From assembly GCA_027295505.1 (NCBI GenBank), contig JAPUKU010000089.1, forward strand, positions 1 through 48,042: a stretch of DNA of 48,042 nucleotides, read 5' to 3'. Below, one piece after another: positions 6,614-13,271 of the stretch. The notes under the pieces were generated by a model. It was not told where the DNA came from and did no database searches. It saw only the letters and a program-made list of their open reading frames with translations. This stretch comes from Acidobacteriota bacterium. Lineage in GTDB: Bacteria; Acidobacteriota; Polarisedimenticolia; JAPUKU01. Position 1 is the first letter of the stretch, and each line of letters opens with the position of its first letter. Both the position numbers and the translations under genes were made by a program.

Positions 6614-7762
6614 TTACAGAGACCCGGTGCTGGAGCGCTCGGCTCCGGGGCGCGGCACCGGTTCCGGTGAGGCGCCCAGCCGCCCTTCCTTGGGCGCAGC
6701 GTCGCGGGCAATAGCGGCGTGGGTGCTCTGAGCTCCCGATAGCGCGATCACACCATCTTGCAGGCGGTCCGCCTGGCGGCGGGCTTCATCGAAGTTGTTC
6801 TGCGCGTGGCCCATCTGCTTGCCAAGGCGGGCAAACGTCTCCATGAACTGGACGAATCCCTGCTGCAGACCGCGAACGCTCCGGAACACCTCCTGAGCGT
6901 CCTTCTCGATTCTAAGTCCCTTCAGCCCATACACGATTGCCATTAGGTAGGCGTAGAACGAGTTGGGGGAGACTGGAATGACCTTGCGTTCAAGCGCGTA
7001 GGTGCTGAGATCGGGGCCTCCGGTACCGTCCTCGCGTAGGATCACTTCGTAAAAGATGTTCTCGGCCGGGATGTACATGAGGGCGAAATCGTAGGTGCCC
7101 TCCTCCGGCAGGATGTACTTGTCCGCGATCTCGGTGATGCGGTTGCGTACGGAGGTATTGAACTCGCGGCGCGCCACGCGGCGCTCACCCTCCGCTTCCG
7201 CCTTGATCATGCGGCTGAACGCTTCCAGGGGGAACTTGGCATCAACTGGCACCAGCCCATCACCGAGCCGGATCACCGCATCCACCTTGACACCGCTGCG
7301 GAACGAATGCTGAAGTGAGTAGGCCGACTCGGGCAGGACCTGCCTGAGGAGTTCCGCTAGCAGGCTCTCGCCCATGAGCCCGCGCAGCTTCGGGGCTTTC
7401 AGGATGTTCTGCAGGTCGGTGAGGCTGCGGCCCATCTCCTGCATGTGCTCGGCGGTGCGTGCCAGATCGCCGAGCTGGTGCTGCACCCTCGCCACCGCCT
7501 GAGTCGCACCCTCAAGGCGCTCACCGATCGATTTCTGCCCCTGCTGGAGCTGCTCGTGAAGCGTATGCGTGAGGGTTCCCACCTGGTTCTGCAACTCATT
7601 CTTGAGGTCGAGAAACTGCTGCTGGAGCAAGCCGAGAGACGAGGAAGAGGTTTGGGCTTCAGCTCTTGAGGTTCGCCGTCCGGCCAGCCAGGCGGCAAGC
7701 GCGGAGACTCCCGCCAGTGCACCGGCGGCGAGGGCCACGAGAGTCCATGAGACAAGGGTCAT
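6614..7762 (-). CDS. rmuC: RmuC family protein
   Basis: Probable RmuC, a membrane-anchored protein with a nuclease-like core that in E. coli limits recombination at inverted repeats. The 382-residue protein has an N-terminal membrane helix (about 5-27), a long coiled coil (about 40-120) and the conserved RmuC core: GLMGESLLAELLRQVLP, VDAVIRLGDGLVPVDAKFPLE, and TYDFALMYIPAENIFYE. A further coiled coil follows, then a low-complexity Pro/Ala/Gly tail. It is the last gene of the run that begins with the GGDEF regulator, 16 residues' worth of sequence after the sugar-kinase gene. RmuC has no established link to cell-wall sugar metabolism, so the shared operon is only positional. Confidence 0.88.
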   Translation of the reverse strand: MTLVSWTLVALAAGALAGVSALAAWLAGRRTSRAEAQTSSSSLGLLQQQFLDLKNELQNQVGTLTHTLHEQLQQGQKSIGERLEGATQAVARVQHQLGDLARTAEHMQEMGRSLTDLQNILKAPKLRGLMGESLLAELLRQVLPESAYSLQHSFRSGVKVDAVIRLGDGLVPVDAKFPLEAFSRMIKAEAEGERRVARREFNTSVRNRITEIADKYILPEEGTYDFALMYIPAENIFYEVILREDGTGGPDLSTYALERKVIPVSPNSFYAYLMAIVYGLKGLRIEKDAQEVFRSVRGLQQGFVQFMETFARLGKQMGHAQNNFDEARRQADRLQDGVIALSGAQSTHAAIARDAAPKEGRLGASPEPVPRPGAERSSTGSL

Positions 7763-7815: not shown

Positions 7816-8799
7816 CTACGAGTGCTCGTACCGGAGATGCCGGTCGAAGATCTCGAGGATAGACGAATCAGACGGGAATTTTTTCAGGTTGGCAAGCACG
7901 TATCCGAGCGTGCGCGGAACAGACTGGAGATAGATCGTGTGCTGCTTCACCGTTGCCTGGTAGGCGAAGGTGCCCAGGGCCTTGACGTTGCGCTGCAGCG
8001 AGACGCGGTCAAACTCGGTCCGCAGCCCTTCGGACGGCAGGCCACGCTGCACCCGGAAGTGATCGAGCAGCGGGTCGATGAAGCTCTCCGGCAACTCCAC
8101 GTACGAGTCGCGCAGCAACGATGCAAGGTCATAGGTGCGGGGCCCCCAGCGCGCATCCTGGAAGTCGAACATATACAGTCGCCCGCGGTGTACGATTAGA
8201 TTGCGGGAGTGGTAGTCGCGGTGGCAAAAAACGCGGTCGCCGCCGGAGGTCTCGCGTGCCAGGTCCTTCAGCCAGCTCTGGAGGGCCGCCGCCTCCGAGG
8301 CGGAAAGTGGTGAGTCGAGTAGGCGCTCAACGTAATTCTGCATGAAGAAGCGCAGTTCCCAGTCAAACTTCTCGAAGTCGAGCGTGGACTGGTGGGCGAT
8401 GCAGGCGGGTGTCAGACACCGCGTGCCCTCACCCTGCAACAGGCAGATGAGGTCGATGGCCTCACGGTAGATCGTCTCCACCTCGCTAGCCGGCCGCTGC
8501 CGCACGTAGTCCTGCAGCAGCGTGTCCCCCAAATCCTCGAGAATCAGGACACCCTGCTCCGGATAGGCAGCCAGGACTTCCGGAACCGGTGAGCCGATTC
8601 CGTTCAGATGGTGCGCCACGTTCAGGAACGGAAGCTCATCCTCGCGGAAAGCATCCTCGTGAACCATGAGGATGGCGCTGCCGGACGGAGTCGTGACCCG
8701 GTAGTACAGGCGGTTGGAGGCATCCCCCTGCAGGCGCGCGAGTTGGGCATCGGCGCCGTAGCGCTCGCGGACCAGTCCCTGCAGATCCACGTCACTCAT
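7816..8799 (-). CDS. Aminoglycoside phosphotransferase-fold sugar kinase, AmgK-like (MurNAc/GlcNAc 1-kinase candidate)
   Basis: APH-fold kinase with the catalytic loop CHRDYHSRNL (HxDxxxxN) and the metal-binding DFQD that follows. AmgK phosphorylates MurNAc (and GlcNAc) at the anomeric position in the peptidoglycan-recycling route that bypasses de novo UDP-MurNAc synthesis, and it is normally encoded beside the uridylyltransferase MurU. Here a nucleotidyltransferase gene lies directly upstream, which is the main support for the AmgK reading. The open frame extends to an ATG at 8856, but that start has no ribosome binding site. The ATG at 8799 has AGGA eight bases upstream and gives MSDVDLQGLV and 327 residues; a third ATG is at 8805. 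A general APH-family kinase of other specificity remains possible. Confidence 0.75.
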   Translation of the reverse strand: MSDVDLQGLVRERYGADAQLARLQGDASNRLYYRVTTPSGSAILMVHEDAFREDELPFLNVAHHLNGIGSPVPEVLAAYPEQGVLILEDLGDTLLQDYVRQRPASEVETIYREAIDLICLLQGEGTRCLTPACIAHQSTLDFEKFDWELRFFMQNYVERLLDSPLSASEAAALQSWLKDLARETSGGDRVFCHRDYHSRNLIVHRGRLYMFDFQDARWGPRTYDLASLLRDSYVELPESFIDPLLDHFRVQRGLPSEGLRTEFDRVSLQRNVKALGTFAYQATVKQHTIYLQSVPRTLGYVLANLKKFPSDSSILEIFDRHLRYEHS

Positions 8800-8905
8800 G
8801 CGCATCGTCCTGGGACGCTGTGTGCTTGATTGGCTGGGCACCGGTACTCCTTCCATGGATGTTGCAGGGCATTACGCCGCCGCTTCGCCTGCCGGCGGGC
8901 GGCAG

Positions 8906-10009
8906 TCAGGCCGGCGGAGGGAGACTATACGCCGCCAGCCTGCCGTTTTCACGTACCAGGACCTGGGAGGACAGGTCGGTGGACGGTGGAACCTCCACCC
9001 CATCCTCGGTCACGACCCCCCGCAACCTGGAGCCGCGGCCGATGCGCGAACCTGCCATGAGCACCGCATCCTCCACATGGGCCCCCTCCTGCATCTCACA
9101 CCGGGGTCCGATGACGCAGCGGTGAAGGCGGGCGCCCACTCCGAGGATCGAATCTGGACCAATCCAGACCGGCGCTTCAAGCTGCGCGCTCTTGAGTCCC
9201 TTAACCCCTGGAGCGGCGAAGATGCCCGGCTCCACGGAGCGTTCGGCGGCGTCCGCTAAGCCCCCGCCGCTCAGCAGGTGCAGCGATGCCGCTAGATACA
9301 GGGCCGGGGTGCCGATCTCGTACCAGTCGGATTCGTCAGACAGAATGAATAGGCGCCGGCCCGCGGCCAGCGCCGCCGGATACACATCGTGGTTAATGTC
9401 AAATACACCGTCGCTCGGAAAGAACTCGAACAAATCCGGCTCGATGAGGTGAACACCCGTGAACACGTATTGCTTCAGGCCGCGGGGGGGAACCAGGGGA
9501 GAGCTCGGCCGACCCGCGATGCGCCAGAGGCGCCCATCTTCATCGGCTTCAAGAGGTCGGTATGGATCGCCGGGCTTGAGGGGCCGCGCCACCAGCGTTG
9601 CCAGGGCTTTGCTCCGGCGATGGGCCCGGACCAGGGATGCCAGGTCGCAGGATGAGAGAGAATCGCCGTTCAACAGAAAAAACGGAGCGCCTTCCAAAAA
9701 CTGCCGGGCTCGGGCCACCCCTCCTCCCGTCCCGAGCACCCGGGGTGATTCTTCCGAGTAGATCAGCTTCACCCTGTCCGGTACGCTGTCCTTGAGGGCC
9801 TCGCGCACGGTCTCCGGCCGGTGGTGCAGGTTGACCACCAGTTCATCGACGCCGGCGCCGATCAGGCGCCGCGCAATCTCCGAGACCAGGGGGCGGTTGA
9901 GGAGCGGCAGGGCCGGTTTTGCCCGCCGCAGGGTGAGAGGGCGCATGCGCTCGCCCAGCCCCGCGGCGAGAATCATGGCCCGGCGGGGGCTCACCGTGGG
10001 GTTTGTCAT
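8906..10009 (-). CDS. Sugar-1-phosphate nucleotidyltransferase with C-terminal left-handed beta-helix (MurU/GlmU/GMP-PP type)
   Basis: The N-terminal Rossmann-like domain has the nucleotide-binding signature LAAGLGERMRPLT with KPALPLLNRPL, then GTGGGVARA and the metal-binding LNGDS. From about residue 255 the sequence turns into hexapeptide-type repeats (APVWIGPDSILGVGARLH and following), a left-handed beta-helix. The enzyme should join a nucleoside triphosphate to a sugar 1-phosphate. Because an AmgK-like kinase follows, UDP-MurNAc or UDP-GlcNAc is a reasonable product. Known MurU is about 220 residues and lacks the beta-helix, so at 367 residues this is not a plain MurU, and GDP-mannose or dTDP/ADP-sugar synthesis is possible. 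The start overlaps the stop of the CYTH gene as ATGA. Confidence 0.85.
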   Translation of the reverse strand: MTNPTVSPRRAMILAAGLGERMRPLTLRRAKPALPLLNRPLVSEIARRLIGAGVDELVVNLHHRPETVREALKDSVPDRVKLIYSEESPRVLGTGGGVARARQFLEGAPFFLLNGDSLSSCDLASLVRAHRRSKALATLVARPLKPGDPYRPLEADEDGRLWRIAGRPSSPLVPPRGLKQYVFTGVHLIEPDLFEFFPSDGVFDINHDVYPAALAAGRRLFILSDESDWYEIGTPALYLAASLHLLSGGGLADAAERSVEPGIFAAPGVKGLKSAQLEAPVWIGPDSILGVGARLHRCVIGPRCEMQEGAHVEDAVLMAGSRIGRGSRLRGVVTEDGVEVPPSTDLSSQVLVRENGRLAAYSLPPPA

Positions 10010-10602
10010 GAACGCGAAGCAGCTGCCTTGCGCACGCTATCGGGAAACAATAGGTCCTGGTCCGGCAGGCCGCGCTCCCTCAAGTGCTGGATGTGGAGCG
10101 AACGGTAGTTCAGAAGAACATGCTCACCGGGCTTGTACCCCAGCTTGCGGGCCATGGTGTCGATGGCACGCTTGGGTCCTTCCAGCTCGATAAAGCAGCC
10201 GAACGGAAGCTCGTCGAGCATCACCTGCAGTCCGCCGGCCCGGTACACGGTGCGGAACTTCTGGTAGCGGTAGTTCGGAGTCAGCCCCAGGCGCCGGAAG
10301 ATCCGATCGAGGCCAGTAGGGTCATCCACGTGGATTTCGATCTCAGTTCGAACCTTCACGCCCGGCAGGAACTTCGGCGGCGGGCCTTTGTAGGTCAGGA
10401 GGGCTCCTTTGACACTCTGGCACAGGCGAAGGCGCAGCAGGTCACCGCGCCGTTCCAGCGATCGGGCCCCATCGTCGTACAGGGTGTTCTCCTCGAAATG
10501 GCGCTTGTTCTGAATCTTTGCCCGCACCTTTTTGAGACGGCGCAAGGCTTCAGCCACCGATGGAGAGCGAAGCTTGATTTCGATTTCGACTCTTTCTACC
10601 AT
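10006..10602 (-). CDS. CYTH domain protein (class IV adenylate cyclase/triphosphatase fold)
   Basis: The 198-residue protein opens with the CYTH signature EIEIKL (ExExK) and has the alternating basic and acidic strands of the triphosphate tunnel fold: FEENTLYDDG, LLRLRLC, LTYKGPP, TEIEIHVDD, YRAGGLQVMLDELPFG and FIELEG. Members hydrolyse inorganic or thiamine triphosphate or cyclise ATP; the substrate cannot be told from sequence. Its stop overlaps the start of the nucleotidyltransferase gene, so the two are translationally coupled. It starts 27 bp after the GGDEF regulator. A role as a triphosphatase or nucleotide-signal enzyme serving the downstream sugar-nucleotide genes is inference. Confidence 0.88.
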   Translation of the reverse strand: MVERVEIEIKLRSPSVAEALRRLKKVRAKIQNKRHFEENTLYDDGARSLERRGDLLRLRLCQSVKGALLTYKGPPPKFLPGVKVRTEIEIHVDDPTGLDRIFRRLGLTPNYRYQKFRTVYRAGGLQVMLDELPFGCFIELEGPKRAIDTMARKLGYKPGEHVLLNYRSLHIQHLRERGLPDQDLLFPDSVRKAAASRS

Positions 10603-10629
10603 GGATACCAGGTTCCGGGTGGGAGATCC

Positions 10630-11613
10630 TTAGCGTGTGTGCCGTGTGACGCTGCGCGACCGCGTGCTCTGGCCGCGGGAGACCACGATACGGTTGCGAC
10701 CGAGCCGCTTCGCCTCGTAGAGGGCAGCATCAGCTGCTTCCAGAAGGGTCGTCTCGTTTCGCACGCTGCGATTACGGGGGAACGTTGCTAGCCCGAGGCT
10801 GACCGTGATGCGCTCGGTGCGGTTGTCGACGACGAACTTGTGCTTCTCAACGGCGGATCGAATGCGCTCAGCCACCGTAGTGGCCTGCGCCCCATCCGTG
10901 TGAGGGCAGAGGATGGCAAACTCCTCGCCGCCGTAGCGAGCCACGAAATCGGTCTCACGGGCTCCCTCTCGCAGGACCTGGCCGAGCTCACGGAGGATCC
11001 GATCCCCCTTCAGATGTCCGAAGCGGTCATTGAGCCGCTTGAAGTGATCCAGGTCGAGCATCAGGCAGGTTAGATGGCTGTCATACCGTTTGGCGCGCTT
11101 GAACTCCTCGGTGACCCGCTCGCAGAAGTGCCGGTAGTTGAACAGGCCCGTCTTCTCGTCCGTGATGAGCGTTTGCTTGAGCCGTTCATTGACTTCCTTG
11201 AGTCTCGCGTTGGTGCGCTCCAGGGCATGGTATAGATCACGCTTCTCGAGCATGGTCGAAATGCGCGCATCCACTTCCTCGAAGTTGAAAGGCTTGGTGA
11301 TGTAATCGTCGGCGCCGGCGCGAAGACCCCGGATCTTGTCGGCACTGGAGCGGCGGGCGGTCAGCATGATGATAGGCACACGCCGCGACGCCTTGTCCCC
11401 CCGCAGGCGCCGGGCCACCTCGATGCCGTCCAGGTCGGGCATTAAAACGTCGAGCAGGATCAGATCGGGAGGGCGTTCGTGAACTTTGCGCAGGGCCTGC
11501 TCGCCAGAGCTTGCGGCCTCGACCCGGTACCCTTTGCGGCCCAGCCAGTCGGAGAGCGCCGCGACGTTATCCTTCGCATCGTCCACCACCAGGATCCGGT
11601 AATCGTTGCCCAT
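10630..11613 (-). CDS. Response regulator with diguanylate cyclase (GGDEF) output
   Basis: The 327-residue protein has a CheY-like receiver (LVVDDAKDN at 8-16, phosphoacceptor D55 in LLDVLMPD, conserved lysine in YITKPF near 107), a coiled linker (about 118-150) and a GGDEF domain with an intact active site GGEEF at 228-232. The inhibitory I-site RETD (219-222) is five residues upstream, so product feedback control is expected. It should make cyclic di-GMP when phosphorylated; no histidine kinase is nearby. It is the first gene of the minus-strand group that includes the CYTH and sugar-nucleotide genes. Candidate promoter elements lie about 160 bp upstream, leaving a long GC-rich leader. Confidence 0.93.
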   Translation of the reverse strand: MGNDYRILVVDDAKDNVAALSDWLGRKGYRVEAASSGEQALRKVHERPPDLILLDVLMPDLDGIEVARRLRGDKASRRVPIIMLTARRSSADKIRGLRAGADDYITKPFNFEEVDARISTMLEKRDLYHALERTNARLKEVNERLKQTLITDEKTGLFNYRHFCERVTEEFKRAKRYDSHLTCLMLDLDHFKRLNDRFGHLKGDRILRELGQVLREGARETDFVARYGGEEFAILCPHTDGAQATTVAERIRSAVEKHKFVVDNRTERITVSLGLATFPRNRSVRNETTLLEAADAALYEAKRLGRNRIVVSRGQSTRSRSVTRHTR

Positions 11614-11776: not shown

Positions 11777-11806
11777 ATTATAGCCCAGCCTCTTAAAACT
11801 TGGAAA
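11777..11806 (-). promoter_or_regulatory. Candidate promoter of the GGDEF-CYTH-nucleotidyltransferase-kinase-rmuC group
   Basis: On the minus strand a perfect TATAAT (11782-11777) is preceded, after 18 bp, by TTTCCA (11806-11801), a four-of-six match to TTGACA. It lies between ftsZ and the GGDEF gene and would start a transcript with a leader of about 155 bases. Confidence 0.45.
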
Positions 11807-11912: not shown

Positions 11913-13271
11913 CTAGTCCGCCTGCTGTTTACGCAGGAATGCGGGTATGTCGAGGTCGTCGGCCCGGCCAGCATACTGAGGCTGGCTGGAGGCATCCCCC
12001 CGCCGGGAGAAGAACGAGAACGGTCGGGAAGAGCGTGCACGGCCGGCAGCCCGCTCGCCCCCGCCCTGCTGAGCGGGTTCGGCGAGAGCGCCGTCCATTT
12101 CTCCAGCCGTCTCGGCTGGGTGGTTCGCCGGCTCTATTGCTGGCGGTCTGGGAGCGTGTGACTTGGTGCCGTCCGCATTCTCCCGGGCCCCGGTCGGGAT
12201 GAGGCCCGGTGCCCGGGACGAATGGGGTCTCACAGCGACTCCTCGCATCCCTCCCTCGATTACCCCCTCGAGCTCGCTGTGGAAGCCGGTAGCGATGACG
12301 GTTACCTTGATGCAATCGTCGAACGCCTTGTCGATCACCGTGCCGAAAATGATGTTCGCTTCAGGATGCGCCGCATCATGAACCACCGTCGAAGCCTCAG
12401 AGACCTCATGCAGCGTCATGCTGGGACCGCCCGTTATATTGATCAACACCCCCTGAGCACCATTGATCGAGGTGTCCTCTAACAGCGGAGATGAGATGGC
12501 ACGCTGAGCAGCTTCCGTTGCCCGGTTTTCTCCGCGCGCCACGCCGGTTCCCATGAGAGCCATGCCCATACCGGACATGATGGTTCGCACGTCGGCGAAG
12601 TCCAGGTTGATCTCTCCCGGTACCGTGATCAGGTCACTGATCCCCTGCACCGCCTGCCGGAGTATGTCATCCGCGATCAGAAAGGCATCGGTGAGTGTCG
12701 TGGTCCGCTCCACCGTGTGCAGAAGTTTCTCGTTCGGGATGGCGATGACCGTGTCCACGGCCTCTCGCAGCTCTGTGAGGCCGCGCTCCGCCTGGGCGCG
12801 CCGGCGTTTGCCCTCGAACTGGAATGGCTTCGTGACCACGGCCACGACAAGAGCGCCGAGCTCGCTCGCCAGACTAGCAATCACCGGAGTGGCGCCGGTG
12901 CCGGTGCCCCCACCCAGACCGGCGGCGATGAACACCATGTCGGCTCCGTCCAGCGCCTCGATGAGCTTCTCGGTGTCCTCCAGCGCTGCCTGGCGGCCGA
13001 CCTCCGGGTTGGCGCCGGCGCCCAGGCCCTTGGTGAGCTTGTTGCCCATCTGCACCTTGAGCGGCGCCAGACAGCTCTTCAACGCCTGGCAGTCGGTGTT
13101 CGCGGTTATGAATTCCACGCCTCGCAGGTTGGCCGCGATCATGCGGTTGACCGCGTTGCCACCGCCGCCGCCAACACCAATCACTCTGATGCGGGCTCCG
13201 ATCACCGGATCATCACTGAACTGAACCTTCGGACTCGCGCGCTTCGCATCGTCATCTGACATGGTGATCAT
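11913..13271 (-). CDS. ftsZ: FtsZ, cell division GTPase
   Basis: Tubulin-like GTPase that forms the Z ring. The 452-residue protein has the N-terminal nucleotide motif [15 protein letters not shown], the tubulin signature [12 protein letters not shown] and the catalytic T7-loop region ([11 protein letters not shown]). A long disordered linker rich in Pro, Ala and Arg follows (about 340-435), and the end is a conserved C-terminal peptide ([10 protein letters not shown]) that binds FtsA and other tethers. The start at 13271 (MITMSDDD) has GAGGAGGT just upstream; the internal ATG at 13262 is also possible. It is the last gene of the dcw cluster, nine bases after ftsA. Confidence 0.98.

Follow-up and report, generated by a model that had tools for sequence, protein, structure and literature searches.

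A conserved Acidobacteriota gene triad encoding a CYTH protein, a nucleotidyltransferase and an AmgK-like kinase, with a plausible but unproven role in cell-wall salvage

Does a run of four minus-strand genes downstream of ftsZ in an Acidobacteriota bacterium form a functional unit, and what might that unit do? The genes lie in a 48,042-nucleotide stretch (the window) of contig JAPUKU010000089.1, from the draft genome GCA_027295505.1 (G000; 2.92 Mb, 95.5% complete). The initial annotation had placed a GGDEF response regulator, a CYTH protein, a β-helix nucleotidyltransferase and an AmgK-like kinase in one operon, and had proposed nucleotide signalling tied to peptidoglycan recycling. All four open reading frames are indeed intact and lie on the minus strand at the positions originally assigned. 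Three of them form a conserved unit, hereafter the triad: the CYTH gene (10006–10602; 198 aa, a predicted two-metal triphosphatase by Pfam CYTH and its motifs), the gene of a hexapeptide/β-helix-tailed sugar-1-phosphate nucleotidyltransferase (8906–10009; 367 aa), and that of an AmgK-like APH-fold sugar kinase (7816–8856; 346 aa). The first two overlap by 4 bp in an ATGA that is read directly in the sequence, as the initial annotation had reported, and 49 bp separate the second from the third. The triad is a real, conserved arrangement of known enzyme kinds, which apparently has not been described before.

Adjacency was tabulated from gene coordinates in 100 genomes, namely G000 and 99 relatives, in which the sample of the window's class spans 12 families. 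The relatives of G000 in the contig collection, which was scanned for CYTH relatives with a five-member alignment, are nearly all Acidobacteriota. CYTH is present in 77 of the 100 genomes and the kinase in 89, while all 100 have a nucleotidyltransferase match, many of these being paralogs. For 58 of the 77, the nucleotidyltransferase gene comes immediately after CYTH and has the same orientation, and the kinase gene follows in 47 to complete the triad. Within the window's class, the nucleotidyltransferase gene is directly downstream of CYTH in 35 of 36 cases, with the kinase also next in 34, and overlapping codons between the CYTH and nucleotidyltransferase genes are frequent among the relatives. 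The flanks, meanwhile, vary by lineage: ftsZ and GGDEF genes in the window's class, a polyprenyl synthetase gene in others, HtrA with a gene labelled asparaginyl-tRNA synthetase from its sequence in yet others, and, in another lineage, STAS and UPF0029 genes. Such an order, held while the flanks change, argues for selection, and the presence of the triad in 47 of 100 sampled genomes is a recurrence far beyond chance; common ancestry contributes to it, the sampled genomes not being independent. Thus, the co-occurrence for which the initial annotation had proposed a survey is found in the relatives.

Two further arrangements were seen in the same survey. In other Acidobacteriota, a polyprenyl synthetase gene immediately precedes CYTH, whether or not the nucleotidyltransferase and kinase genes are there (L074, L078, L089, L090, L098, L150, L152, L165, L178, L179, L184, L186, L191, L205 and L215). 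A macro-domain gene occurs inside or beside the unit in some lineages, Aminicenantes included (L098, L104, L105 and L195).

By sequence and fold, the kinase is an AmgK-like APH-fold sugar kinase. Besides a Pfam APH match (1e-32), its top model match is AmgK (3.8e-33), and AmgK models are the best match for all 23 aligned kinases, with both models and by many orders of magnitude. The HRD...RN and QD catalytic motifs are invariant among these kinases. The AlphaFold model (predicted local distance difference test, pLDDT, 92.6) has as its best Protein Data Bank match, by both sequence and fold and by far, 3csv, an alphaproteobacterial APH-family protein. The window kinase is about 30% identical over about 300 aa to AmgK-type kinases of Legionella, Acinetobacter and Xanthomonas, which we named from gene context and model matches; at least two of them adjoin an annotated nucleotidyltransferase gene. 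This equals the level published for the Caulobacter AmgK, backed by genetics and metabolomics, against the Pseudomonas enzyme (30.1%; PMC13046382). In an unrooted tree with many long branches, the module kinases fall between the proteobacterial and the Bacteroidota RapZ-fused AmgK-type clades, a placement that is suggestive only. In Bacteroides and Prevotella (L226, 3013–4443, and L229), the AmgK-like kinase makes up the N-terminal region of a larger protein; the Bacteroides fusion is annotated RapZ and lies beside a nucleotidyltransferase gene.

The nucleotidyltransferase combines an N-terminal NTP_transferase domain (Pfam, 1.1e-27) with LbH/hexapeptide matches to a C-terminal left-handed β-helix. 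The best Protein Data Bank folds for its AlphaFold model (pLDDT 93.7) are those of the UDP-glucose pyrophosphorylase (UGPase) tlr0611 and of GDP-mannose pyrophosphorylases (GMPPs). The enzyme shares the two-domain architecture and fold of these β-helix-tailed enzymes (8x7s/tlr0611, 7x8j and GMPPB), but is about 25–29% identical to them over the aligned length, occupies a separate tree branch and, unlike them, is paired with an AmgK-like kinase. The N-terminus is 42% identical over 134 aa to Pseudomonas putida MurU (4y7t), with common GERMRPLT and TGGG stretches, whereas the whole protein, at 367 aa and with a tail that MurU lacks, exceeds the 218–251 aa of the MurU references. Assignment by best match was rejected for both MurU (105 of 250 bits) and GMPP (145 of 440 bits in the mannose-1-phosphate guanylyltransferase model), because both scores are far below the curated cut-offs and the tree sets nearly all module nucleotidyltransferases outside a 99/96 clade of MurU, GMPP and UGPase references. 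Judged by this tree, the enzyme is not an ortholog of MurU, nor of GMPP/UGPase. The proposed likeness to the AmgK–MurU pair therefore stands as far as an AmgK-like kinase beside a sugar-1-phosphate nucleotidyltransferase is concerned, but does not extend to MurU itself, from which the β-helix tail had already been taken to set the enzyme apart, in agreement with the tree.

The CYTH protein matches both Pfam CYTH (49.5 bits; cut-off 23.2) and the NCBIfam model of class IV adenylate cyclases (TIGR00318, cyaB), whose cut-off of 57.95 bits it passes by 0.15 with a score of 58.1. By the criteria of Vogt et al. (PMC8233210), a true class IV cyclase carries an HF motif ahead of ExExK, has a small residue where RxR would begin with Arg, and has Ala instead of the second Glu of ExE. 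The HF motif is absent from all 133 CYTH relatives, the window protein included; Arg57, which opens RxR, is invariant (133/133), and Glu141 is retained in 132. The cyclase assignment was thus rejected on all three counts. Conversely, the ExExK, RxR and ExE motifs of triphosphate tunnel metalloenzyme (TTM) triphosphatases are all present, and E6, E8, K10, R57, R59, K72, K115, R117, D130, E139 and E141 are each conserved in 127–133 of the 133 relatives. The closest solved relative is SaTTM (Saci_0718; 7ns8, E 1.6e-13). Residue 55 is Leu, leaving no Trp or Tyr at the thiamine-binding position two residues before the first Arg of RxR. We therefore predict that CYTH is a two-metal triphosphatase rather than a cyclase. 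Given that it passes the cyaB cut-off without cyclase motifs, the model is a likely source of wrong annotation, and standard annotation would probably mislabel the protein as a signalling cyclase.

The GGDEF gene (10630–11613, minus strand) encodes a Pfam Response_reg and GGDEF protein with the combination expected of a diguanylate cyclase, a REC domain and a GG(D/E)EF motif, here GGEEF, together with an RETD inhibitory site. In these features, it resembles the PleD/DgcR-type diguanylate cyclases, but differs from them in its conserved place beside ftsZ: in 17 of the 19 loci of the class that show ftsZ, the very next gene is a REC-GGDEF gene (the window, L048–L068, L100, L101 and L141–L146 being loci with this pair). 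In contrast, it directly adjoins CYTH only in the window and L169, while in the other loci the two are 170 bp or more apart, often with genes of the opposite strand between them. We therefore rejected the inclusion of GGDEF in the unit, where the initial annotation had put it, and regard it as a neighbour of ftsZ, outside the triad. Together with the triphosphatase signature of CYTH, this removes the ground for the nucleotide signalling that had been proposed. The ftsZ–GGDEF adjacency itself links cyclic di-GMP (c-di-GMP) to a division gene, a link of which we found no description.

For peptidoglycan recycling, the gene content of G000 is partly favourable. Above curated cut-offs, the genome encodes both AmpG (362 bits; cut-off 350) and NagZ (222 bits; cut-off 207), the latter with no obvious signal peptide on reading, and thus the two proteins expected of peptidoglycan recycling in general. 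Profile searches of the draft gave no match to AnmK, no true MurQ (weak matches only, best E 1.9e-4) and no NagA (short weak matches only). Consequently, the Pseudomonas route is incomplete in G000 and could not run as described, unless AnmK is replaced by an unrelated enzyme or encoded in the 5% that the draft lacks. Of the 100 sampled genomes, 34 have AnmK; within the class sample, it is found in 9 of 41, confined to two families. The proposal of peptidoglycan recycling is thereby supported in part: the genes for import and release are present, but those for the canonical steps that follow were not found, and the nucleotidyltransferase does not group with MurU. With AmpG and NagZ but no AnmK, MurQ or NagA found, the AmgK-like kinase becomes a candidate for handling the freed sugar. 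AmgK elsewhere also accepts N-acetylglucosamine (GlcNAc), as its NCBIfam name states, and direct GlcNAc salvage through GlcNAc-1-phosphate would therefore fit the gene set of G000.

From gene content, conservation, active-site residues and the presence or absence of pathway genes, we infer the following substrates and direction of flow. AmpG would import disaccharide-peptide from cell-wall fragments, and NagZ would release GlcNAc. The kinase would phosphorylate free sugar at C1, most likely GlcNAc and/or N-acetylmuramic acid (MurNAc) from the imported fragments, giving GlcNAc-1-phosphate (or MurNAc-1-phosphate), which the nucleotidyltransferase would convert to UDP-GlcNAc (or UDP-MurNAc); AnmK, MurQ and NagA would be bypassed. 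CYTH, translated with the nucleotidyltransferase, would hydrolyse an inorganic or organic triphosphate and have no cyclase role, while the GGDEF protein would remain an ftsZ-linked neighbour. That the kinase and nucleotidyltransferase turn recycled GlcNAc and/or MurNAc into a nucleoside diphosphate sugar through the 1-phosphate, with CYTH as a triphosphatase, is the reading we prefer, and our confidence in it is evenly poised between acceptance and doubt. The more specific proposal of an undescribed Acidobacteriota route, in which a 1-kinase for GlcNAc/MurNAc and a uridylyltransferase with a hexapeptide tail would yield UDP-amino-sugars directly, without AnmK, MurQ or NagA and together with a dedicated, cooperating CYTH triphosphatase, is speculative and rather unlikely to hold in all its parts. 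Cell-wall salvage as such is plausible but unproven.

Several findings weigh against this salvage reading. The window kinase reaches 115 of the 550 bits of the NCBIfam AmgK equivalog cut-off, which is passed in none of the 41 class-sample genomes; the control genomes likewise fall short, including Caulobacter with its genetically supported amgK. Nor do genomes with AnmK have the kinase more often than those without it (27 of 34 versus 62 of 66), and the presence of AnmK could not be used as support for canonical recycling. CYTH also occurs without the nucleotidyltransferase or kinase, and the pair without CYTH, in the 100-genome sample, so that CYTH is dispensable to the pair. The best sequence model of the nucleotidyltransferase, mannose-1-phosphate guanylyltransferase rather than MurU, its closest folds and its position outside the MurU clade would all suit a pair whose substrate is a different sugar (mannose, glucose, heptose or a rarer hexose), activated for envelope or exopolysaccharide synthesis and unrelated to peptidoglycan recycling. 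We regard this as a possibility worth keeping, though on balance an unlikely one, given that AmgK is by far the closest APH family to the kinase, that the module nucleotidyltransferases lie outside the GMPP/UGPase clade as well, and that AmpG and NagZ were found but not the enzymes that usually act after them.

Canonical Pseudomonas-type MurNAc recycling (AnmK–MupP–AmgK–MurU) in an unusual gene order would account for an AmgK-like kinase adjoining a nucleotidyltransferase with a MurU-like N-terminus, for AmpG and NagZ, and for the AnmK of some class-sample genomes. It is improbable, because AnmK was not found in G000 nor in 66 of the 100 genomes, most of which carry the kinase, because the nucleotidyltransferase is no MurU by tree, and because the five annotated proteobacterial and Bacteroidota loci compared have the kinase and nucleotidyltransferase genes in the opposite order. 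Far less credible still is a signalling module in which CYTH makes cyclic AMP and the GGDEF protein c-di-GMP to control wall-sugar use; the narrow pass of the cyclase cut-off and an intact GGEEF gene 27 bp upstream of CYTH speak for it, whereas the active-site residues of CYTH are the opposite of those of class IV cyclases and, among relatives, the GGDEF gene goes with ftsZ. Whatever the substrate of the pair, CYTH could be a passenger that merely shares the operon and has its job elsewhere. This is a serious contender, to which we give somewhat less than an even chance: CYTH persists in kinase-less genomes (for example G046, G061, G073, G085 and G096) and beside the polyprenyl synthetase gene of other lineages, but in 58 of 77 cases it directly precedes the nucleotidyltransferase gene despite varied flanks, often with overlapping codons.

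Under the salvage reading, the triad resembles the AmgK–MurU pair of Pseudomonas, Caulobacter and Bacteroidota in setting an AmgK-type APH-fold kinase beside a sugar-1-phosphate nucleotidyltransferase, and differs in its reversed gene order, the CYTH gene in front, the β-helix-tailed nucleotidyltransferase outside the MurU clade, and AnmK, which was not found in G000. SaTTM, like other TTM enzymes, has the motifs of the window CYTH but was described as a lone enzyme, whereas the window CYTH belongs with a nucleotidyltransferase and a sugar kinase. What CYTH/TTM enzymes do in the cell is largely unknown (PMC8233210), and a near-invariant, class-wide operon offers them a definite, testable setting, which, if the reading is true, would be their first concrete physiological one. 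A literature search found no paper on AmgK and CYTH together, the founding CYTH work (Iyer and Aravind 2002) being outside its reach; for CYTH with peptidoglycan and nucleotidyltransferase, the sole match concerned jumbo phages. These uncultured soil and groundwater bacteria have AmpG and NagZ, whereas family searches indicate that AnmK, MurQ and NagA are mostly lacking; they may thus reclaim sugars of the wall directly through the 1-phosphate. Meanwhile, the probable annotation error, a CYTH that passes the NCBI class IV cyclase cut-off without cyclase motifs, can be flagged.

On the minus strand, the genes read ftsQ, ftsA, ftsZ, GGDEF, CYTH, nucleotidyltransferase, kinase and an RmuC-type gene, where ftsQ and ftsA are our labels from gene order and sequence and the other names are Pfam-based. 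The RmuC-type gene (6614–7762, minus strand) lies 53 bp downstream of the kinase gene; this adjacency was not seen as a conserved one in relatives. Upstream, ftsZ (11913–13271, minus strand) is separated by 299 bp from the GGDEF gene. A consensus scan, which found 2 sites versus 0.9 expected by chance, placed in this gap a promoter-like site on the minus strand (11777–11806; 10 of 12 consensus positions). It is a possible start of a GGDEF–CYTH–nucleotidyltransferase–kinase transcript, and the four genes may be co-transcribed in the window's lineage.

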